In this document: one piece after another, positions 20,531 to 37,798 of the stretch
How the letters are laid out: every line of letters begins with the position of its first letter
Position numbering within the stretch: the stretch's first letter is position 1
Source: Amycolatopsis granulosa
GTDB lineage: Bacteria > Actinomycetota > Actinomycetes > Mycobacteriales > Pseudonocardiaceae
Length of the DNA: 64,000 nt
Assembly: GCF_011758745.1 (NCBI RefSeq)
Contig: NZ_JAANOV010000001.1
Location: 5,518,001-5,582,000 of the forward strand
Direction of reading: 5' to 3'
Made by a program: the position numbers and the translations under genes
The notes under the pieces: generated by a model
What the model saw: only the letters and a program-made list of their open reading frames with translations
Told to the model about the DNA's origin: nothing
The model's database searches: none

Positions 20531-21517
20531 ATGGCGATGACCGCCGCCGTGAAGGACGAGCTCAGCAGGCTGCAGATCACCAAGATCGGGCCGCGCCGGT
20601 CGGAAGTCGCATCGATGCTGCGCTTCGCCGGTGGCCTGCACATCGTGGGGGGACGGGTGGTGGTGGAGGCGGAGCTCGACACGGGTTCGGTCGCGCGGCG
20701 CCTGCGCAAGGAGATCCACGAGCTGTACGGTCACCACTCGGACGTGCACGTGCTGTCCGCCGGCGGGCTGCGCAAGACGACCCGGTACATCGTCCGGGTG
20801 GTTCAGGACGGGGAGAGCCTGGCCCGGCAGACCGGGCTGATCGACCAGCGGGGCCGCCCGGTGCGCGGCCTGCCGGCCGCGGTGGTGTCCGGGGGCATCG
20901 CCGACGCGGAGGCCGCATGGCGGGGCGCCTTCCTGGCGCACGGCTCGTTGACCGAGCCGGGCCGGTCGTCGTCGCTGGAGGTGACCTGTCCCGGCCCGGA
21001 GGCGGCGCTGGCGCTCGTGGGCGCGGCCCGGCGGATGGGCATCCAGGCGAAGTCGCGCGAGGTCCGGGGCGCCGACCGGGTGGTGGTGCGCGACGGTGAC
21101 GCGATCGGCGCCCTGCTGACCCGGCTGGGCGCCCACGCGAGCGTGCTGCAGTGGGAGGAGCGGCGGATGCGCCGCGAGGTCCGGGCGACGGCCAACCGCC
21201 TGGCGAACTTCGACGACGCGAACCTGCGCCGCTCGGCCCGCGCCGCGGTCGCGGCGGCCGCCCGGGTGGAACGGGCCCTCGACATCCTGGCGGACTCGGC
21301 GCCGGAACACCTGCTGGCGGCCGGCCGGCTCCGGCTGGAGAACCGGCAGGCCTCGCTGGAGGAGCTGGGTCAGCTCGCCGACCCGCCGATGACGAAGGAC
21401 GCGGTCGCCGGCCGCATCCGGCGGTTGCTGGCCATGGCCGACAAGCGGGCGAAGGAACTGAACATCCCGGACACCGAAAGCGCGGTCACCCCGGACATGC
21501 TCGAGGAAAGCGTCTGA
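20531..21517 (+). CDS. whiA: WhiA sporulation/cell-division transcription regulator
   Basis: 328 residues. The N-terminal part is the degenerate LAGLIDADG homing-endonuclease-like fold ([20 protein letters not shown]). The C-terminal part is a helix-turn-helix ([30 protein letters not shown]). WhiA, with WhiB, drives sporulation septation genes in Streptomyces and exists in non-sporulating Gram-positives as well. ATG 20531 follows GGAGGGG. A strong hairpin follows the stop. Confidence 0.94.
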
Positions 21518-25935: not shown

Positions 25936-25954
25936 GTCCGCGAGTGTGCGCCGG

Positions 25955-25978
25955 TTTCCGGCCGGGGGCTGGCGGAAA
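25955..25978. promoter_or_regulatory. Candidate MarR operator between divergent genes
   Basis: TTTCCG at 25955-25960 and CGGAAA at 25973-25978 form a 24-bp spaced palindrome with 12 nt between arms. It lies between the dioxygenase and marR starts. The size and symmetry fit a dimeric winged-helix repressor; binding is not shown. Confidence 0.35.
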
Positions 25979-26039
25979 TCGGCCGGGGAGCCCGCCGGAC
26001 GGCGATCCCCGCTGCCGGCGGCGTGGGATCATGACCGGC

Positions 26040-26504
26040 ATGGCGAGCGAAGGACCAACCACGGAGGAGGCCGTGCGCACCGCGTTGCTGCTCCTGCCGC
26101 GGCTGGTGGGGCGCGCCAAGAAGATCCCGGTCCCGGAGTCGCTGCGCGGGTTCTCCCTCGCCCCGCGGCACCTGTCGCTGCTGTCCTACCTGCTCTTCGA
26201 CGGGCCGATGACGGTCAACGAGCTGGCCGCGCGTCTGGAGGTCGCGTCCACCACGGTCAGCCTGATGGTCGGCGACCTCAGCCGCCGCGGCATCCTCACG
26301 CGCACCGAGGACGAGCAGGATCGGCGCCGCACCATCGTGAGCATCGCCGCGGCGTACCACACGGATGTGGAGGGCTGGCTCGCCACCGGCGCACGTGCCT
26401 GGCGCACCGCGCTGGAGCCGCTCACGCCCGCACAGCGGCGGATGTTCCTCGACACGCTGCGCGCCTACGAGCGTGAAGTCGAGCAGGAGCGGGGTCCCGG
26501 GTAG
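26040..26504 (+). CDS. MarR-family transcription regulator
   Basis: 154 residues from ATG 26040 (ATG 26031 also in frame). The winged helix-turn-helix is MTVNELAARLEVASTTVSLMVGDLSRRGIL, followed by the wing RTEDEQDRRRTIVSI. Helices at both ends would dimerise. GATCAT lies 7 nt before ATG 26040, a possible leaderless -10. Its stop codon TAG (26502-26504) is part of the -10 box of the following operon. Ligand unknown. Confidence 0.85.
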   Translation: MASEGPTTEEAVRTALLLLPRLVGRAKKIPVPESLRGFSLAPRHLSLLSYLLFDGPMTVNELAARLEVASTTVSLMVGDLSRRGILTRTEDEQDRRRTIVSIAAAYHTDVEGWLATGARAWRTALEPLTPAQRRMFLDTLRAYEREVEQERGPG

Positions 26505-26507
26505 TCT
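26502..26507 (+). promoter_or_regulatory. -10 box of the SMC-like operon
   Basis: TAGTCT overlaps the marR stop codon and ends 8 nt before GTG 26516, which lacks a Shine-Dalgarno. The operon therefore probably has its own leaderless promoter rather than relying on marR read-through. No clear -35. Confidence 0.5.
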
Positions 26508-26515
26508 GGCCCGCT

Positions 26516-27994
26516 GTGCGTGACTCGGACCTGATCAGCGGGGGGCTGGTGGACGAGGGCCTGGCCCGGCGGCTCAAGGCGCTCGCCTGCACCGCGCCCC
26601 TGCACGACCTGGACGCGCGCAAGGCGAAGCTGGACTGGGCCGACGCGACCGTCTACCAGATGGCCGAGATCGCGCTGCACACCATCGACCTGGTCACCAT
26701 CGCGATGGACTTCGACACCGGCGCCGGCCACGACGACGTGGTGCGCCGCCTGCAACCGTTCATCGCCGCCCAGGCCCCGCAGCGCCCCGCGGAGGAGCAC
26801 CTGCGGGTCGCGCGCTGGGTGCTGGACAACCTGATCAACGTCGGCACCACGGACCGCGGCTTCCGCCGGGTCTACGGCAGCCTGGACGCGCACGGCCGTT
26901 ACCGGCGCCGCGCGTTCGACTTCAAGCTGCTCGTCGAGCTGGCGGCCCCGGACGGCGAGGTGTACCTGCGGGCCAGCGACGAGGCGATCAACGTGCTGGT
27001 CGGCGCGCTGGACACCGACGTGGAGTCGGCGCAGATCGCGGCCGAGGTCAAGTTGGAGAACCTGATCAGCCGTGGCCGGCTGGCGGACGCGAAGCTCGCC
27101 GCCGAGCAGGCGCGCTACCGCACCGTCCAGTACGGCGAGACGTTGCGGGCCAAGCTCGACGCGACCCGCCGCGATGTGCGTGCGGTGGACTGGGACCGGG
27201 AGATGCCGGAGCTGCTGGACTCCGCGCTGACCCACATCGAATCCCGGTTCCGGGCCGAGAACGCGATCCTGCGCAACATCACCGCGGCCCGGGACGAGGC
27301 CGAGGACGTCGACCACAAGCGCCGTGCCGCCGAGCTGGTCGACATCGTCGGCGACTGCATCAGCCGCCACACCCGGCTGCAGGCGCGGTTGCAGGCCGCC
27401 GGCGCGGTGTTCCGCGCCGAGCAGGACCGCCAGCAGTTCTCCGGTCCGCCGCGGCGGGCCACGGTCGACCTGTTCGGCCAGATCCTGATGCCCGCGCTCG
27501 AACTGCCGATCGCCGAGGCCGTCGCGCCGCTGGAGTCGTACTTCCAGGCCGCGTCCGGGCTGACCGTGCCGACCGTGCCCGCGCTGCCGTCGCTGGTGTC
27601 GTTGCTGCTGCGGCCGGCACCCGAGCGCGACAAGGTGGTGGGCGAGGTGCCGGAGCCGGAGCTCGTCCCGCCCGAGAGCCTCGACCACTACAGTGACGAG
27701 CAGTGGCGGCGCGCGGACGAGCTGCTGGACCTGCCCGGGGTGCCGCGGCGGCTGTCCGGCGTGCTGGCCGAGGCGCGCGAGCTCGACCCGCAGCTGCCGC
27801 GTCTGGTGGCGTTGCGGGCGCTGCACTCCTACAGTCCCGAGGTGGGCGCGGCGATCCGGCAGGGGGACGACCGGGCGCTGCTCGCCGTCGACGACGGCAC
27901 ACCACTGGCCGACGGCGAGTTCGGCGGCGCCGACCTGCTGCTGAGCACGGTCCGGCTGGACCGCGACGTTGTGGACGAAGAGGGGGCGGCATGA
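26516..27994 (+). CDS. JetA/MukF-like kleisin subunit of SMC complex
   Basis: 492 residues, predicted cytoplasmic and mainly helical. It begins with a helical region that looks winged-helix-like (GGLVDEGLARRLKALACTAPLHDLD). A long central helical part follows (about 160-290: ESAQIAAEVKLENLISRGRLADAKLAAEQARYR), then a C-terminal helical domain with acidic stretches. Together with the next two genes the order and sizes match JetA-JetB-JetC of Wadjet or MukF-MukE-MukB condensins. No catalytic motif is visible. The assignment rests mostly on context and on overall architecture; a profile search (DUF3375/MukF) would be decisive. The stop overlaps a 23-codon frame. Confidence 0.6.
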   Translation: MRDSDLISGGLVDEGLARRLKALACTAPLHDLDARKAKLDWADATVYQMAEIALHTIDLVTIAMDFDTGAGHDDVVRRLQPFIAAQAPQRPAEEHLRVARWVLDNLINVGTTDRGFRRVYGSLDAHGRYRRRAFDFKLLVELAAPDGEVYLRASDEAINVLVGALDTDVESAQIAAEVKLENLISRGRLADAKLAAEQARYRTVQYGETLRAKLDATRRDVRAVDWDREMPELLDSALTHIESRFRAENAILRNITAARDEAEDVDHKRRAAELVDIVGDCISRHTRLQARLQAAGAVFRAEQDRQQFSGPPRRATVDLFGQILMPALELPIAEAVAPLESYFQAASGLTVPTVPALPSLVSLLLRPAPERDKVVGEVPEPELVPPESLDHYSDEQWRRADELLDLPGVPRRLSGVLAEARELDPQLPRLVALRALHSYSPEVGAAIRQGDDRALLAVDDGTPLADGEFGGADLLLSTVRLDRDVVDEEGAA

Positions 27995-28062
27995 GGACTG
28001 CGCGCAGGTCCGGATCATCCGGTGCCGGGCGGAGCGCGTCCGGCGCGGAGGTGCCGGCATGA
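27991..28062 (+). CDS. 23-codon relay frame between jetA-like and jetB-like genes
   Basis: ATG 27991 overlaps the upstream stop (ATGA) and has AGGGGG 4 nt upstream. The 23-codon frame, rich in Ser, Arg, Gly and Ala, fills the 64-nt spacer, and its TGA (28060-28062) overlaps the next ATG at 28059 (ATGA). Either a tiny basic peptide is made or the frame serves to carry ribosomes across. The downstream gene also has its own GGAGG 7 nt before ATG. Confidence 0.35.
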   Translation: MRTARRSGSSGAGRSASGAEVPA

Positions 28063-28859
28063 CGCGTCCGGTCACCACCGGCGACGCGGAGAACGCGGCA
28101 CGGCTGATCTCGTTCGGCATGCGGCCCAAACACCTGCCCGCCCGCGACGTCGTGTACGCGGACCTGGTCCGCCGCTACGGTGAGGACAGCGCGTTCAAGC
28201 AGCTGACCAACTCCGTCGCGGCCGGCCTGGGCCTGATGGTGCTCGACGTGAGCAGCCAGGCCGGGGCGGTGCTGGCCGCCACCGACGAGTCGGTGTTCGA
28301 GGTCAGGATGGACAGCTACGCGCGGCAGAGCAAGATCCGCGAGCGCCGTGACACCGAGAAGGTGCTGCACGGCCTGGTGCACCTGGCCACCGCGGCGCTC
28401 GGTTACCCGCGCCCGGACGACCTGGCCAACGACACCTACATCGGCCGGGTCAGTGTCGACCAGGTCGACGGCGTGGTGCGCGAGGCGTGCCGGATCCTCG
28501 ACGAGCGCGCGGCGAAGGCCGAGGCGAACAACGACCCGCTGTCCGACTCGCCGGAGCTGGAGCAGGCGTGGCGCGCCTACGCCCGCCGTCCCGAGGCGGC
28601 GGCGACCAAGGACGGCCGGCTGGCCTCGGACACCACGCGCGGCATGGTCTCGCGCGCGCTGCGGTTCCTGGCCGACCAGGGCTTCCTGGTGCAGGTCAGC
28701 GGCGAGCAGGGCGGCACCTACCGGACCACGCCGCGCTACCAGGTGCAGGTGCGGGAGCTGGCCGCGGACAGCGCCTTCGAGGAGCTGCTGGCACTCGGCG
28801 TGGTCGCGGTGTCCGACGGCGAGGGCACGCTGCGTCCGTCCGGTTCGGACACTCTGTAG
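28059..28859 (+). CDS. JetB/MukE-like (DUF4194-like) subunit
   Basis: 266 residues. Two winged-helix-like regions are suggested: one near 15-60 (ARDVVYADLVRRYGEDSAFKQ) and one near 185-230 (RGMVSRALRFLADQGFLVQV). The latter is followed by a short beta wing (GTYRTTPRYQVQVREL). This is the layout of MukE/JetB/MksE proteins that bind the kleisin and DNA. ATG 28059 with GGAGG upstream. The gene for the SMC-like ATPase starts 12 nt downstream. Specific identity is inferred from architecture and neighbours. Confidence 0.6.
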   Translation: MTRPVTTGDAENAARLISFGMRPKHLPARDVVYADLVRRYGEDSAFKQLTNSVAAGLGLMVLDVSSQAGAVLAATDESVFEVRMDSYARQSKIRERRDTEKVLHGLVHLATAALGYPRPDDLANDTYIGRVSVDQVDGVVREACRILDERAAKAEANNDPLSDSPELEQAWRAYARRPEAAATKDGRLASDTTRGMVSRALRFLADQGFLVQVSGEQGGTYRTTPRYQVQVRELAADSAFEELLALGVVAVSDGEGTLRPSGSDTL

Positions 28860-28871
28860 GGGGAGAGATCG

Positions 28872-31800
28872 GTGTACGAGCTTTCGCGGGTGCGCCTGCA
28901 CTCGGTCGGTCCGGCCGGCGCGCGCTACCAGGACGTGCTGCTCGACTTCAGCGGTGCGGGCCCGCTGGTGCAGGCGCCGGCGCAGGACGCGCTGTTCACC
29001 GCCGGGATCCACTCGGCCGAGGGCGGCCCGCCGCGGCGGCCGTCGCCGGCGAGCGTGCTGTTCCTGGAGAACGGCGGCGGCAAGTCGGTGCTGATCAAGC
29101 TGATCTTCTCGGTCATGCTGCCCGGGCGGCGTCAGGTGGTGGGCACGACCAGCACGCGCGTGCTGGAGAAGTTCGTCATGGCCAAGGACGTCGCGCACGT
29201 CGTGCTGGAGTGGCAGCACACCGGGACCGGGCAGCGGGTGATCACCGGCAAGGTGTCGGAGTGGCGCGGGCACGTGACCTCCGGTGATCCCGCCAACCTG
29301 ATCGATTCGTGGTACTGCTTCCGGCCCACCGCGTCGCTGGATCTGGAGTCGCTGCCGTTCACCGACGGCGGCCGCCTGCTCACCATGTCCGGGTTCGCCG
29401 AGCAGCTGGACCGCGCGCACAAGGCCGAGCCGGAGCTGGAGCTGTTCACCACCCGGCGCCACCACGAGTGGACCGAGCGGCTGGACGGCCTCGGCCTGGA
29501 CACCGAGCTGTTCCGCTACCAGCGCGCGATGAACGCCGGCGAGGGCGAGGCTGCCGACGCGTTCGCCTTCACCTCCGACGAGGCGTTCGTGGAGTTCCTG
29601 CTGCGCGCGGTGATCCCCGAGGACGACCCGAAGGACCTGGCGGAGGTGGTGCAGACCTACGCGCACAACCTCGGCCGCCGCGGCGAGCTGATGAGCGAGC
29701 GCGACTTCGTCGCCGGCGCGCTGGAGCTGCTCACCCCGCTCACCGAGGAGGAGTCGCTGGCCGCGGCGTCCCGCAAGCTGGCTGCCCTCGCCCGGGAGGA
29801 GGCGTGCGAGCTGGCCGGATCCGTCGTCGCCCGGCACCGGCTGGAAGCCGGACGGCTCGCCGGGCTCCGGTCCTATGTGGACGAGGCCAGGGATGCGGAG
29901 AAACTCGCCGAGGGCGACCACCGGCGCCGCGCCGCCGTCGTGACCGAGCTGCGCCGGGTCGTCGCGGAACTGCGACTGGCCGGCGCCACCGCCGAGAGGA
30001 CCCGGCTCGACGAGGAGCTGCGGCACGCACGCGAGACGGCGGCCGCCTGGCGCGAGACCGGCACGGTGCTGGCACACGTCAACGCCGCCCGCAGGGCCGC
30101 CGACATCCGCGAGCTCGTCGGTGACCGCGAGCAGAGCGCGAAACCGGCGCTGGCGGCCAGGAACGCGGCGGCCACGGCACTGGCCCGCGGCCTGCTCGCG
30201 CTCGCCCGCGAGGCCGGGGAACAGGCCGGGGCCGCCGAAGCGCGCGCCGCGGCTGCGCGGACCGGCGCCGCGGCCGCCCAGGACCAGCGGGACGAGGCCA
30301 CCGCCACCGCCGCCGCGCACCGCGCCGAGCTGGGACAGCTGACCCGCCGCATCGAGGAGGTGCGCGCGCGGGTGCAGCAGGCCGTCCGGGACGGGCTGCT
30401 CACCGATGGCACCCAGGTCGCCGCCGCGGCGCAGGAGGCCCGCACGCGCGGGGAGCAGGCGGTGGCGGAGCTGGCCGCGCGGGAGAGCGAACTGGAGGGC
30501 GTGGCCGAGGACCACGCCCAGGCCCAGTTCGCGCTGCACGCCGCGCAGCAGCGAGCCGCCGCCGCGCAGGTCCGCGCGGCACACGCGGCCGAGGAGCTGG
30601 CCAAGGCGCAGCGCCGCACCGACAGCCTCGCCGCGCACCCGCGGCTGCTGGAACTGCTCGGCGGTGACAACGTCCAGCTGGAGACCGACACCCCCGCGCT
30701 GCTGACCCGGTTGCGCGAGGCGCGGGCCGCCGCGGAACGGGAGCAGACCGCGCTGCGCATGGCGGAGTCGGCCGACGAACGTGCGCTGGCCGCGCTCGGC
30801 TCCGGTGGGCTGCTGCCGGCGCCGCCGGAGGTCCAGTCCGCTTTGGACGTGCTGGAGGCGGCGGGCATCACCGCGTGGTCCGGGTGGCGGTATCTGTCCA
30901 CGATGGACAGCGCAGCGCGGGAGCGGGTGCTGCGGGACCTGCCGCACCTGCTCGGCGGGGTGCTGGTGAACGACCCGGCGCACCTGGACCGCGCCCGCCA
31001 GGTGCTCGCCGGCGCCAAGCTGCTGCCGAGCGTGGTGCTGCCGGTCGGCACCACCGGGGCGGTGCGTGCCGGCGGCGCGGCGCCGGGCGTGGCGTTCCTG
31101 GTCCCGCCCAACCCCGCGATGTACGACGAGGACGCCGCCGACACCGAGCGGCAGGCGATCGCCGCCCGGCAGGCCCGCCGGGAGAAGCAGCTCGACGCGC
31201 TGGCGAGCGCGATCGGCGACGACACGGCACTGGAGTGGAAGCTCACCACCTGGCGCGAGGACTACCCGCCCGGCGCGCTCGCCACGCTCGCCGAGGAGGC
31301 CGAGGCCGCGGCGGCCGGGCACACCGAGGCGGTGGCCGCCATCGCCGCGCAGGAACGCGCCCTGGCCGATCTGACTGCGCGGCGGAACCGGTTGCGGGAA
31401 GCGGTCCCGGCGCTGCGCGCCGCGGCCCGCACGAGCGAGGAGCGCGCCCGCAAGCTCGGTGAGCTGGCCGAGCGGGTCGCGTTGATCCCGCAGTGGACCG
31501 AGGCGGCCGGGCACGCGCAGGAGGTGGTCACCCGCGCGGAGGCCGGGGCCGAGCAGGCCGCGGCCCGCGCGGCGCGGCTGCGCGAGGAGGCCGCCGAGGA
31601 GCAGCGCACCGCCGACGGCCACCGCCGCACCGTGACCCACGCGCGGGCCGAGCTGGCCGAGGTGCCCGGCGGGGGATCGGTGTCCGAGGACGAGCCGGTG
31701 CCCGCCGAGCCGGTGGACGTGCTGCGCCGGGCGTTCGCCGCGGCCAGCGACGCCTACGCCCGGGTCGAGGTCGGCAGCGACCTGCGGGCCGAACTGGACC

Positions 31801-33338
31801 AGGCCGAAAGCGCGGAGGCCGCCGCGCGGGCGGCGCTGGAGGCCGTGGACGCCGCGGTGCGGGAGCGCGCCGCGCGGCTGCTGGAAACGCCGGACGGATC
31901 GGACGCCGCGACCCGCGCGGCGGCCCTGGCCCGCGCCGGGCGGGCGGTGTCGGCGCTGGAGGCCGAGCAGAGCGAGGCGATCGGGCTCGTCGCGACCTGC
32001 AAGGCCGAGCTGGACCAGCTGCCGGGGCAGAACGCGGCGCTGGAGACCCGGCCGCGCGACGTCGAGCACGGCCGTGAGCTGATCGACGACGCCACGGAGC
32101 AGGTGTCGGCCGCCGCCCGGGCGCTGGAGGAGGCGCAGGCGCGGCGCGCGGAGGCCGAACGCGCGCTGGAGGTGGCCACCGCCTCGGCCGCCGGGTTCGA
32201 GATGCTCGCCGGCTCGGTGGCGCACCTGGTTCCCGGCGGTGAGCCGGAGGGTGCGGTCGGGGCGGACAGTGCGGTCAGCGTGTTCGACGGCGATGTGGAG
32301 GCCGCGCAGGCCCGCTACCGCAAGCTGAACACGACGCTGACCGACGCCGAGGCCGCGGTGGAGGGCGCCGAGAAGCGGGTGCGCGCGGCGGCGGACGCGC
32401 TCGCCCAGTACGCGACGGACAAGCGGTTCGAGAAGCTGAGCAGCCCGGTGCGGCAGCAGATCGTGTCGGTGCGCCGGGACGACCTGCCGGCGCACGCGCG
32501 GGAGTGGGCGGCCGCGCTGAAGCCGCGGCTGCGGACACTGACCGACGACCTGGCGCAGATCGACCGGCACCGTTCCGGGATCGTCGCCCGGCTGCAGGGG
32601 ATGGTCGAGGGTGCGCTGCGCATGCTGCGCTCGGCGCAGCGGCTGTCGCGGCTGCCCGAGGGACTCGGCGGCTGGTCCGGGCAGGAGTTCCTGCGGATCC
32701 GGTTCGGCGACCCCGAGGAGCCGCAGCTGTCCGAGGCGCTCGGTCAGGTCGTGGACGAGGCCGCGATCGGCCGGACCAGCGACGGGCGCGACGTCAAGCG
32801 CGACGGCATGTCCCTGGTGCTGCGGGGTGTGCGGGCGGCCGTGCCCAAGGGGTTCCGGGTGGACATCCTGAAACCGGACTCGGTGCTGCGCACCGAACGC
32901 CAGCGGGTGTCGGAGATCCGGGACGTCTTCTCCGGCGGCCAGCAGCTCACCGCCGCGATCATCCTGTACTGCACGCTGGCCGCGCTGCGGGCGAACAACC
33001 GTGGCCGGATCCGCAACCGGCACTCCGGGGTGCTGTTCCTGGACAACCCGATCGGCCGCGCGTCGGCCGGGTACCTGCTGGAGCTGCAGCGCGTCGTCGC
33101 CGAGGCGCTGGGCGTGCAGCTGATCTACACCACGGGCCTGTTCGACGCGGGAGCGCTGTCGGAGTTCCCGCTGATCGTCCGCCTGCGCAACGACGCCGAC
33201 CTGCGGGCGGGCCGCAAGTACCTGTCGGTCGACGCCACGATCCGCAACCACCTCGACGACCTCGGGGAACCCGACGGCACCGCCCGCATCTCGGCGACCC
33301 GGCTGTTCACCAGGCCGGGGGAGCAGGCGAGCGTCTGA
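28872..33338 (+). CDS. SMC/MukB/JetC-like coiled-coil ATPase
   Basis: 1488 residues. The N-terminal ATPase lobe has Walker A FLENGGGKSVL with Lys71. Long Ala/Glu/Arg coiled coils run from about 270 to 640 and 770 to 1230. A globular hinge-like segment lies at about 643-756 (ITAWSGWRYLSTM, LLGGVLVNDPAHLDRARQVL). The C-terminal lobe has the ABC signature FSGGQQLTAAI (Ser1354-Gly1355-Gly1356) and Walker B VLFLDNPIGRAS (Asp1391). Asn1392 replaces the usual catalytic Glu. GTG 28872 follows GGGGAGA. The protein should entrap or extrude DNA as a dimer with the two upstream subunits. No JetD nuclease gene follows. Confidence 0.82.
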   Translation: MYELSRVRLHSVGPAGARYQDVLLDFSGAGPLVQAPAQDALFTAGIHSAEGGPPRRPSPASVLFLENGGGKSVLIKLIFSVMLPGRRQVVGTTSTRVLEKFVMAKDVAHVVLEWQHTGTGQRVITGKVSEWRGHVTSGDPANLIDSWYCFRPTASLDLESLPFTDGGRLLTMSGFAEQLDRAHKAEPELELFTTRRHHEWTERLDGLGLDTELFRYQRAMNAGEGEAADAFAFTSDEAFVEFLLRAVIPEDDPKDLAEVVQTYAHNLGRRGELMSERDFVAGALELLTPLTEEESLAAASRKLAALAREEACELAGSVVARHRLEAGRLAGLRSYVDEARDAEKLAEGDHRRRAAVVTELRRVVAELRLAGATAERTRLDEELRHARETAAAWRETGTVLAHVNAARRAADIRELVGDREQSAKPALAARNAAATALARGLLALAREAGEQAGAAEARAAAARTGAAAAQDQRDEATATAAAHRAELGQLTRRIEEVRARVQQAVRDGLLTDGTQVAAAAQEARTRGEQAVAELAARESELEGVAEDHAQAQFALHAAQQRAAAAQVRAAHAAEELAKAQRRTDSLAAHPRLLELLGGDNVQLETDTPALLTRLREARAAAEREQTALRMAESADERALAALGSGGLLPAPPEVQSALDVLEAAGITAWSGWRYLSTMDSAARERVLRDLPHLLGGVLVNDPAHLDRARQVLAGAKLLPSVVLPVGTTGAVRAGGAAPGVAFLVPPNPAMYDEDAADTERQAIAARQARREKQLDALASAIGDDTALEWKLTTWREDYPPGALATLAEEAEAAAAGHTEAVAAIAAQERALADLTARRNRLREAVPALRAAARTSEERARKLGELAERVALIPQWTEAAGHAQEVVTRAEAGAEQAAARAARLREEAAEEQRTADGHRRTVTHARAELAEVPGGGSVSEDEPVPAEPVDVLRRAFAAASDAYARVEVGSDLRAELDQAESAEAAARAALEAVDAAVRERAARLLETPDGSDAATRAAALARAGRAVSALEAEQSEAIGLVATCKAELDQLPGQNAALETRPRDVEHGRELIDDATEQVSAAARALEEAQARRAEAERALEVATASAAGFEMLAGSVAHLVPGGEPEGAVGADSAVSVFDGDVEAAQARYRKLNTTLTDAEAAVEGAEKRVRAAADALAQYATDKRFEKLSSPVRQQIVSVRRDDLPAHAREWAAALKPRLRTLTDDLAQIDRHRSGIVARLQGMVEGALRMLRSAQRLSRLPEGLGGWSGQEFLRIRFGDPEEPQLSEALGQVVDEAAIGRTSDGRDVKRDGMSLVLRGVRAAVPKGFRVDILKPDSVLRTERQRVSEIRDVFSGGQQLTAAIILYCTLAALRANNRGRIRNRHSGVLFLDNPIGRASAGYLLELQRVVAEALGVQLIYTTGLFDAGALSEFPLIVRLRNDADLRAGRKYLSVDATIRNHLDDLGEPDGTARISATRLFTRPGEQASV

Positions 33339-33364: not shown

Positions 33365-33850
33365 TCAGCCGCGGATCGCCGCCTGGTACGCGGCCAGCTC
33401 GCCGGCGTCGTCGATGCTGCCGTGGTGGTGGAACTGCGCCCAGCGGCCGTCCGCGTAGCGGAAGTACCGGCTGGTGCGGATCCGCAGCGGCACCTCACGG
33501 CCGTCGACCACGTAGGAGCCGGTCTCCCGTCCGGCGAACAGCGCGTGGCCCTCGCCGGCGTACTCCACGATGTCGCCGAACGTCACCGTCACCAGCGCCG
33601 GACCGTGGAACACCTTGTCGTACAGCGCGCTGATCTCCGGGCCGCCGCGCAGGATGCCGCCCAGCGGGTTGTTCAGCTGGGCCAGCGGATCGCCGGTCCA
33701 CACCTGCGCGAACACGTCCGAATCGCGCTGGTTGAAGGCGAAGTAGAAGGTCTCCAGCGCGGCCAGCGCGCCTTCGATGCCGGGCGCGGTGGCCGCGTCC
33801 AGCCGGTTGCGCGAGTCCGGGCCGAAGGTGGCCGCGAGGCGTCGGGTCAT
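33365..33850 (-). CDS. NTF2/SnoaL-like protein
   Basis: 161 residues. A single NTF2-like cone fold is suggested by LETFYFAFNQRDSDVFAQVW at the N-terminal helices. The strands RTSRYFRYADGRWAQFHHHGSID follow at the C-terminus. Members can be isomerases, hydratases or ligand binders; the substrate here is unknown. It is divergent from an ArsR-like regulator with a shared repeat-rich intergenic region, which suggests regulation by it. Confidence 0.75.
   Translation of the reverse strand: MTRRLAATFGPDSRNRLDAATAPGIEGALAALETFYFAFNQRDSDVFAQVWTGDPLAQLNNPLGGILRGGPEISALYDKVFHGPALVTVTFGDIVEYAGEGHALFAGRETGSYVVDGREVPLRIRTSRYFRYADGRWAQFHHHGSIDDAGELAAYQAAIRG

Positions 33851-36721: not shown

Positions 36722-37798
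<1,077 letters not shown>

Follow-up and report, generated by a model that had tools for sequence, protein, structure and literature searches.

A chromosomally fixed JetABC operon without JetD in Amycolatopsis, probably a MukBEF-like loop extruder derived from type III Wadjet

What might a Wadjet-type SMC operon do when no JetD nuclease gene stands beside it? The question is raised by three consecutive genes (Table 1) in a 64,000-nucleotide stretch of Amycolatopsis granulosa DNA (contig NZ_JAANOV010000001.1; hereafter the window), for which the original prediction offered three functions: a nuclease-free condensin with a chromosome role, a defence system using an unlinked effector, and an anti-plasmid system acting by another route. 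On sequence grounds, the first of these appears to be favoured.

Table 1. Features of the jetABC locus and its surroundings, in positions of the window.
Feature	Position	Strand	Basis or remark
whiA, left anchor (context)	20531..21517	+	Pfam finds three WhiA domains; precedes jetABC in relatives
marR-family regulator, directly upstream (context)	25944..26504	+	Pfam MarR_2, 6.6e-11
Probable -10 element TAGTCT, leaderless jetA promoter	26502..26507	+	Overlaps the marR stop codon
jetA (predicted kleisin, MukF-like), 492 aa	26516..27994	+	PADLOC JetA3
jetB (predicted KITE, MukE-like), 266 aa from ATG	28059..28859	+	Best Foldseek matches of the model are MukE and JetB
jetC (SMC ATPase), 1488 aa	28872..33338	+	PADLOC JetC3
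JetC Walker A, ENGGGKSVL	29067..29093	+	Residue 66; letters identical in 127/130 JetD-less rows
JetC ABC signature (C-loop), VFSGGQQLT	32925..32951	+	Residue 1352; identical in 126/130 JetD-less rows
JetC Walker B region, GVLFLDNPIG	33027..33056	+	Residue 1386; identical in 127/130 JetD-less rows
SnoaL/NTF2-like protein, next gene, outside the system (context)	33365..33850	-	PF13474, 1.2e-7
gap, right anchor (context)	36746..37798	+	Pfam finds Gp_dh_N and Gp_dh_C; follows jetABC in relatives

The first protein matched the PADLOC profile JetA3 (PDLC00567) over residues 10-486 (2.6e-208, 691 bits) and the third matched JetC3 (PDLC00588) over residues 1-1484 (E 0, 1933 bits); profile searches of PADLOC, Pfam and NCBIfam gave no noteworthy match for the second. 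The AlphaFold2 model of this second protein (pLDDT 80) retrieved MukE chains, identified from their entry titles and chain lengths, as its top 12 Foldseek matches and P. aeruginosa JetB as the 13th (probability 0.82-1.00, E no better than 1.5e-3, TM 0.32-0.42), so that by predicted fold it would be a JetB-type, MukE-like KITE subunit. For JetA the model has low confidence (pLDDT 69, pTM 0.37); of its top 11 Foldseek matches, ten were MukF chains by entry title and the remaining one was JetA of E. coli, two of the 11 having E < 0.001 and all a query TM of only 0.14-0.25, and this weak model points to a MukF-like kleisin fold. The JetABC/MukFEB-like layout that had been proposed therefore stands, the open reading frames being as described and the JetA3 and JetC3 profiles agreeing with the JetB model, and the objection that the first two proteins might be unrelated to kleisin and KITE subunits did not hold, with the JetA model weak. 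At E-values up to 1, none of JetA, JetB and JetC matched a Pfam family, and by sequence they are thus not members of the MukB, MukE and MukF families, which we take to be present in Pfam. Searches of PDB sequences with the JetA and JetB profiles returned no relative, only one chance-level match each. In a VIA-align comparison of the JetA model, CorA helices scored nearly level with MukF.

The ATPase motifs of JetC, which we take to be Walker A, the C-loop and Walker B, are intact; some species enter the 130 JetD-less rows of Table 1 twice, and the Walker B region letters also occur in 18 of 31 JetD-bearing rows. By codon score, a jetC start at 28890 is also possible.

The TAGTCT element ends 8 nt before the jetA GTG, and a TANNNT precedes the GTG at 52 of the 54 orthologous loci that were eligible, at 8 nt in 46 and at 6 nt in 6 (a raw count, the other two loci having been dropped because the anchor motif was absent), which supports the leaderless promoter predicted for the operon. 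A simple sigma-70 scan found neither a promoter nor a terminator, and, as the gap between marR and jetA is only 11 nt, read-through from marR is also possible. Pfam bore out the predicted neighbours, marR upstream and the NTF2-like gene downstream, as well as the placement between whiA and gap, a place kept in relatives, and likewise confirmed the identity of Pgk. Among 71 named JetD-less loci, marR lies upstream of jetABC in 6 and a SnoaL/NTF2-like gene is present in 12; the commonest neighbour, a PNPOx-like gene (54/71), is absent from the window, and no candidate nuclease was seen to recur as a constant neighbour.

No JetD adjoins the window's jetABC, and its own genome gave no match to PF09983 (detected in the C. 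glutamicum positive control), to PF09664 (for which no positive control was detected) or to PDLC00594, in agreement with the JetD-less operon first described. PF09983 alone is a poor probe, as four of eight type III JetDs scored below the cut-off of 22 and the best reached 29, and PADLOC PDLC00594 and our own JetD profile were therefore used as well. Twelve of the 19 same-genus genomes, among them that of the window, had neither PF09983 nor PDLC00594, so that a jetD always co-occurring elsewhere did not materialize and an unlinked JetD was rejected as a universal effector. PF09983 matched in 5/19, and strong JetD3 was present in 4/19, each adjoining a second JetC3. In a neighbouring genus, strong JetD3 was found in 17 of 80 genomes, adjoining a second JetC3 in 16 (a JetC fragment in one of these, G464) and the core jetC in the remaining one (G458). 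A full-sensitivity profile search behind jetC found no JetD remnant; its matches weaker than 1e-8 were a true fragment in L181/L264 (4e-7) and two at E 0.31 and 1.7. Apparent tblastn remnants inside jetC were an artefact of one query, L181, whose stop-to-stop frame spans JetC into JetD, and a 28-residue match in L201 was dropped since it seems to belong to an unrelated frame resembling a peptidase.

The jetABC operon is a core, vertically inherited operon under purifying selection and is not sporadic; within these genomes, it is the JetC3 copies with a nuclease that occur sporadically. Full-strength JetC is present in 19/19 same-genus genomes (its own included) and core JetC in 80/80 of the neighbouring genus, both genera holding Amycolatopsis species; among those 80, 77 have a single match of at least 1897 bits, two are split in adjacent frames and one lies across two contigs. 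In the JetA+B tree, a 57-row clade (SH-aLRT 100) holds 55 rows without JetD, with at least 1200 nt behind jetC read in each. WhiA or Gap is visible in 50 of the 57 stretches, both in 24, with identical order and strand in 50/50. JetABC distances follow those of Gap+Pgk (Mantel r 0.906, 0/999 permutations, 41 loci), and dN/dS over seven near rows is 0.109 for JetA, 0.048 for JetB and 0.153 for JetC, with 0.145 for Gap and 0.169 for Pgk. As jetC is split in 2/80 genomes (G468, G471) and in L182/G306, and no JetC3 match was obtained for 195 of the 297 genomes sampled from the family (two candidates scored per genome), the complex is not indispensable. Nine of 72,556 plasmid records match the window's JetC, none covering 80% of it; a Rhodococcus plasmid carries a distant JetC in two pieces (residues 1-1482, 46% identity, 47% covered). 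ScpA was found in 19/19 same-genus genomes, the only one in the window's genome lying elsewhere (G000:C1:1010382-1011044), so that JetABC is a second complex. In this analysis the JetABC lineage was seen only in actinomycetes.

Since the closest outgroups are mainly JetABCD-bearing (8 of 11 rows), the operon probably descends from a type III Wadjet system that lost JetD, with loss as the presumed direction. Within one bacterial family, JetD-bearing and JetD-less complexes occupy one common chromosomal locus; Tamaricihabitans (L213) and A. rifamycinica (L221) have a JetD at the core locus, so that the platform can still be paired with a nuclease. G258, within the 57-row clade, has a JetABCD system at another location whose JetC scores 1965 bits, so that profile score alone cannot separate the two kinds. 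The JetDs of L213/L159, L221, L145 and L193 form one group, which also takes in the 52-residue fragment L169 (SH-aLRT 96), and this favours retention. Import is favoured by the low JetD identity of the L213-L221 pair (0.36 at JetA 0.75, against 0.52-0.56 at JetA 0.74-0.75 in four other pairs) and by the GC3 of L221 jetD, 0.80 versus 0.94-0.96 in jetABC, the largest mean gap tabulated, narrowly ahead of L184. JetA, JetB and JetC of A. rifamycinica are 96-100% identical to those of the nearest of 14 compared relatives, with versus without the nuclease, and the jetD at the core locus of this species, foreign in composition, may represent a re-arming. The placement of the long branches L068, L073 and L282 in the JetA+B tree is unsure.

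A second JetD-less lineage was found in a Streptomyces-like genus (g112), in 52/52 loci examined. JetD-bearing lineages separate the two JetD-less lineages; loci L210 and L296 were counted as JetD-less although their contigs stop at the end of jetC or shortly after it and would fit either JetD state. A single JetD-less origin for both was rejected by the AU test (p 1.2e-4, for a group picked after the tree was seen); a variant also excluding nested JetD-bearing rows (p 1e-38) was set aside. The labels "Streptomyces-like" and "Frankia-like" (g112, f32, f33) are putative, drawn partly from NIT kinase and Roadblock protein neighbours, and when one g112 locus was searched against plasmids, the best matches came from Embleya and Streptomyces (75% over 11%). 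In actinomycetes, Wadjet III may have become a nuclease-free, vertically inherited condensin on two or more occasions, in the Amycolatopsis-Prauserella-Haloechinothrix and the Streptomyces-like/Frankia-like lineages, a reading that we hold only tentatively; the step would be reversible, because A. rifamycinica appears to have gained a new jetD and so re-armed its core complex. If true, these large-genome mycelial bacteria run a second condensin beside Smc-ScpAB.

For the window itself, JetABC is probably a nuclease-free, MukBEF-like loop extruder derived from Wadjet III, now in housekeeping use and most likely serving, next to Smc-ScpAB, as a second condensin. Two JetC ATPases would be joined by the JetA kleisin, with JetB KITE subunits bound, and the complex may work as an ATP-driven DNA loop extruder; its type III ancestor (JetABCD) would have lost the JetD TOPRIM nuclease, and with it the ability to cut DNA, and become a chromosomally inherited housekeeping complex with a presumed role on the chromosome. 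This nuclease-free condensin is favoured because it is universal in the genus, syntenic and vertically inherited, while its nuclease-bearing relatives are sporadic. The same universality, strict synteny and vertical inheritance are unusual for a defence system and so count against the alternative that JetABC is a non-cutting anti-plasmid or anti-phage system that fully extrudes small circular DNA and silences or sequesters it, a mode of action proposed for eukaryotic Smc5/6. Such a function would suit the circular-DNA sensor ancestry and the retained JetC ATPase motifs, and Smc5/6 is described, in the available part of a review, as compacting and restricting circular viral DNA (PMC10586767); with the nuclease-bearing copies of the same genomes being sporadic, we regard it as rather unlikely.

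It is more doubtful still that JetABC cleaves DNA through a nuclease encoded elsewhere or unrecognised. Other JetD genes do occur in some genomes (the JetD3 and PF09983 matches above), and A. rifamycinica and Tamaricihabitans carry one at the locus itself, but both JetD families are missing from the 12 same-genus genomes, and no nuclease-like neighbour is constant, the PNPOx-like gene included. A decaying Wadjet remnant, its function lost together with JetD, could account for the missing nuclease and the few split jetC genes; it is highly improbable because of purifying selection, with dN/dS of 0.05-0.15, a single full-length match in 77/80 genomes, intact motifs and the promoter element in nearly all eligible loci.

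The origin of MukBEF-type condensins from a defence machine is treated as open, "tempting to speculate", in the review available in part (PMC10586767). Here, a conversion of this kind would be visible within one bacterial family, with both states at one locus, and the near-identical JetABC with and without the nuclease offers a natural with/without comparison. The reading also predicts a second condensin in the Streptomyces-like genus; in the available parts of two sources, Streptomyces folding is ascribed to Smc and no MukB-like complex of Streptomyces is named (PMC13121528, PMC8410768). In addition, counts for which JetABC suffices lump defence together with what may be housekeeping complexes. 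Among the matches listed for open-licence PMC, no title dealt with a core JetABC lacking JetD in these genera.

Compared with Wadjet type III, the operon shares the A-B-C gene order, a predicted JetB, and a JetA and a JetC, the latter with its ATPase motifs, that match JetA3 and JetC3 over their whole length, but JetD, which PADLOC requires for this type (PMC9252829, as excerpted), is absent from both locus and genome; type III systems form sporadic islands, whereas this operon holds a fixed chromosomal locus in all the examined genomes of two genera. It holds no canonical ScpA kleisin and so differs from Smc-ScpAB. Like MksBEF of P. aeruginosa, described as a second condensin beside Smc-ScpAB (PMC7083940, in part), and MukBEF of E. 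coli, it is a kleisin-KITE-SMC operon without a nuclease subunit, with MukF-like and MukE-like predicted folds; unlike them, its proteins fall outside the Pfam families MukB, MukE and MukF, and its nearest relatives are of JetC3 type. An origin of MksBEF/MukBEF-type complexes through JetD loss has already been proposed (PMC10586767, in part). MksBEFG of C. glutamicum, which also co-exists with Smc-ScpAB, and EptABCD of M. smegmatis are actinomycete SMC complexes of the same general architecture, but carry the MksG/EptD nuclease. As far as the excerpts go, C. glutamicum MksBEFG acts on plasmids and not in chromosome folding (PMC7083940, PMC10123090), and MksB of this nuclease-bearing relative has no chromosome role (PMC7083940). 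This counts against the condensin reading. Mycobacterial MksB is reportedly, by the title of a 2024 paper, a novel condensin, which would give a chromosome role for a JetC-type protein an actinomycete precedent.

JetC of the window type was found in all 19 genomes of its own genus (the window's own included) and in all 80 genomes of the neighbouring genus g4, which contains Amycolatopsis species, and 77 of these 80 have a single JetC match of at least 1897 bits; the operon is core in both genera. All 19 same-genus genomes also have canonical ScpA. Since only 102 of 297 sampled family genomes have any match to the PADLOC profile JetC3, many genera of the family are without it. Among the best 80 of 144 named relatives, the hosts include Amycolatopsis, Prauserella, Haloechinothrix, Sciscionella, Tamaricihabitans, Saccharomonospora, Actinophytocola bins and others, and four lie outside Pseudonocardiaceae/Pseudonocardiales (two Actinoallomurus, Actinoplanes and a Micromonosporaceae bin), most family assignments being presumed. 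In the same best 80, 71 loci were counted as lacking JetD (one, L210, ends at the end of jetC) and nine carry it; many species occur both here and among the sampled genomes. Moreover, 9 of 72,556 plasmid records match the window JetC, none covering more than 80% of it, and the best is a Rhodococcus plasmid (46% identity).

The window belongs to a 57-row clade (SH-aLRT 100) of the 90-row JetA+JetB tree, and 55 of the 57 rows lack JetD. WhiA or Gap is visible in 50 of the 57 clade stretches, with order and strand identical in all 50; the loci read are a selection from all those located. JetABC distances follow those of Gap+Pgk across 41 loci (Mantel r 0.906; 0 of 999 permutations), and dN/dS over seven near rows is low for JetA, JetB and JetC (0.109, 0.048 and 0.153; Gap 0.145, Pgk 0.169), the corresponding values being higher in relatives with JetD from genus g59 (0.162, 0.123 and 0.309; five rows). 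A leaderless -10 element occurs in 52 of 54 eligible loci, the remaining two having no anchor and being left out. As well, a PNPOx-like gene (pyridoxamine oxidase family) on the opposite strand adjoins jetA in 54 of the 71 named loci without JetD and is absent from the window.

Profile searches of the window's genome for JetD returned zero matches to JetD_C (PF09983) and JetD3 (PDLC00594), and zero to DUF2399 (PF09664), a profile that matched no control sequence either. Strong JetD3 matches occur in 4/19 same-genus genomes (G001, G002, G007 and G012), each adjoining a second, distant JetC3 copy; PF09983 matches occur in 5/19, and 12/19 have neither. A full-sensitivity JetD profile, applied to up to 2.5 kb downstream of jetC at 171 loci, found no JetD remnant at those without JetD. 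The original prediction of an NTF2-like gene on the opposite strand after jetC was borne out by a SnoaL-like protein there; at other loci the gene 3' of jetC differs in identity. Second, distant JetC3 operons with JetD are sporadic in genera holding core JetABC (L065, L066, L067, L068, L074, L185 and L186), so the core complex exists alongside several lineages of Wadjet III. The window's genome also has a 332-aa frame with a JetC3 head and no coiled coil, joining profile positions 2-202 (N-terminal) to 1224-1286 (C-terminal), which could be what a deletion has left or else a short ATPase made of the head alone. In another genome, a JetD3 gene has no recognisable JetC in the 19 kb read around it.

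Coordinates of individual genes and frames in genomes (G) and loci (L)
Feature	Genome coordinates	Locus coordinates
PNPOx-like gene, example		L045:4575-5012
332-aa JetC3 head frame	G000:C1:1653245-1654210	L075:8225-9223
JetD3 gene	G260:C2:1146494-1147573	L193

Directly outside the 57-row clade lie 11 rows, eight JetABCD and three without JetD (L174, L175 and L176, of g59). The motifs EN..T and GD.D, which we take to be TOPRIM metal-site motifs, occur in 28 of 29 JetD rows; the one without them, L181, is an artefact. In L181 and L264 (G212:C69), from an uncultured Pseudonocardiaceae bin, jetC is in two pieces and the jetC/jetD frames are continuous stop to stop, which is a frameshift or assembly error. 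Tamaricihabitans halophyticus (L159/L213) carries JetD with intact motifs in the order whiA-jetABC-jetD-gap, and A. rifamycinica (L221) likewise has such a JetD at this site; G458, whose L298 gives the same values as L221, is alone among the 80 g4 genomes in having JetD3 adjoining core jetC. The JetD tree puts the Tamaricihabitans and A. rifamycinica JetDs in one group, which would favour retention of JetD at the core locus instead of import. Judged by its sequence, however, the A. rifamycinica jetD is likely a recent import, because JetA, JetB and JetC are 99%, 100% and 96% identical to the nearest of 14 compared relatives and the GC3 of jetD deviates (0.80 vs 0.94-0.96 in jetABC). We infer that JetD may have been lost and then regained.

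In a class-wide sample, 63/394 genomes match, 60 of the 63 belonging to f33 and f32 (the latter labelled Frankia-like), two families distinct from that of the window. In the Streptomyces-like genus g112 of f33, 118/121 genomes match, counting any JetC, core type or other; JetD is missing from each of the 12 core loci that were read completely and from each of 40 more read behind jetC (JetC end present 40/40, positive control 10/10), and one genome has an additional copy, L282, that carries JetD. Among six f32 loci, L294, L295 and L297 lack JetD, L292 and L293 have it and are placed elsewhere in the tree, and L296, whose contig ends at or close behind jetC, was taken as lacking it in the 42-row tree. 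There, JetD-carrying lineages separate the f33+f32 lineage (99/97) from the Pseudonocardiaceae clade (100/100), and JetD state changes number at least eight, with nine on 56 rows. Uniting both JetD-less lineages was rejected (AU p 1.2e-4). In g112, a NIT-sensor kinase follows JetD-less jetABC in 4/4 loci scanned (L280, L288, L283 and L289), with a Roadblock protein after it in L280, and a GntR/FCD regulator precedes jetABC in both loci scanned for it (L280 and L288).

In MukBEF and JetABC structures, SMC dimers hydrolyse ATP, the kleisin links the heads and brings two motors together, and the KITE protein binds the kleisin. PMC10586767 is one source for this shared architecture. Here, JetC dimers would hydrolyse ATP, JetA would bridge heads and pair two motors, JetB would bind the kleisin, and the motor would extrude DNA loops. 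In Wadjet, two motors meeting on a small circle are thought to activate JetD; without JetD, such a meeting would be a harmless end point, and the chromosome would be available as substrate. The same route is proposed for P. aeruginosa MksBEF (PMC10586767). The evolutionary pattern points to a chromosome role for JetABC, and action on circular foreign DNA without cutting is the less probable reading, agreeing less closely with these observations.

A 2024 paper, by its title, presents mycobacterial MksB as a novel condensin. JetABC is proposed to work in the manner of MukBEF/MksBEF, yet none of its proteins matches a Pfam family of theirs. JetD is the defining feature of Wadjet and is missing here; therefore, the window JetABC is not filed as Wadjet. 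A defence survey, in the part available, gives Wadjet in 42% of Actinobacteria, with JetD-less sets not separated (PMC10482375). PADLOC, according to its description, reports MukFEB cases under Wadjet 'other' (PMC9252829), which is presumably its class for the window JetABC.
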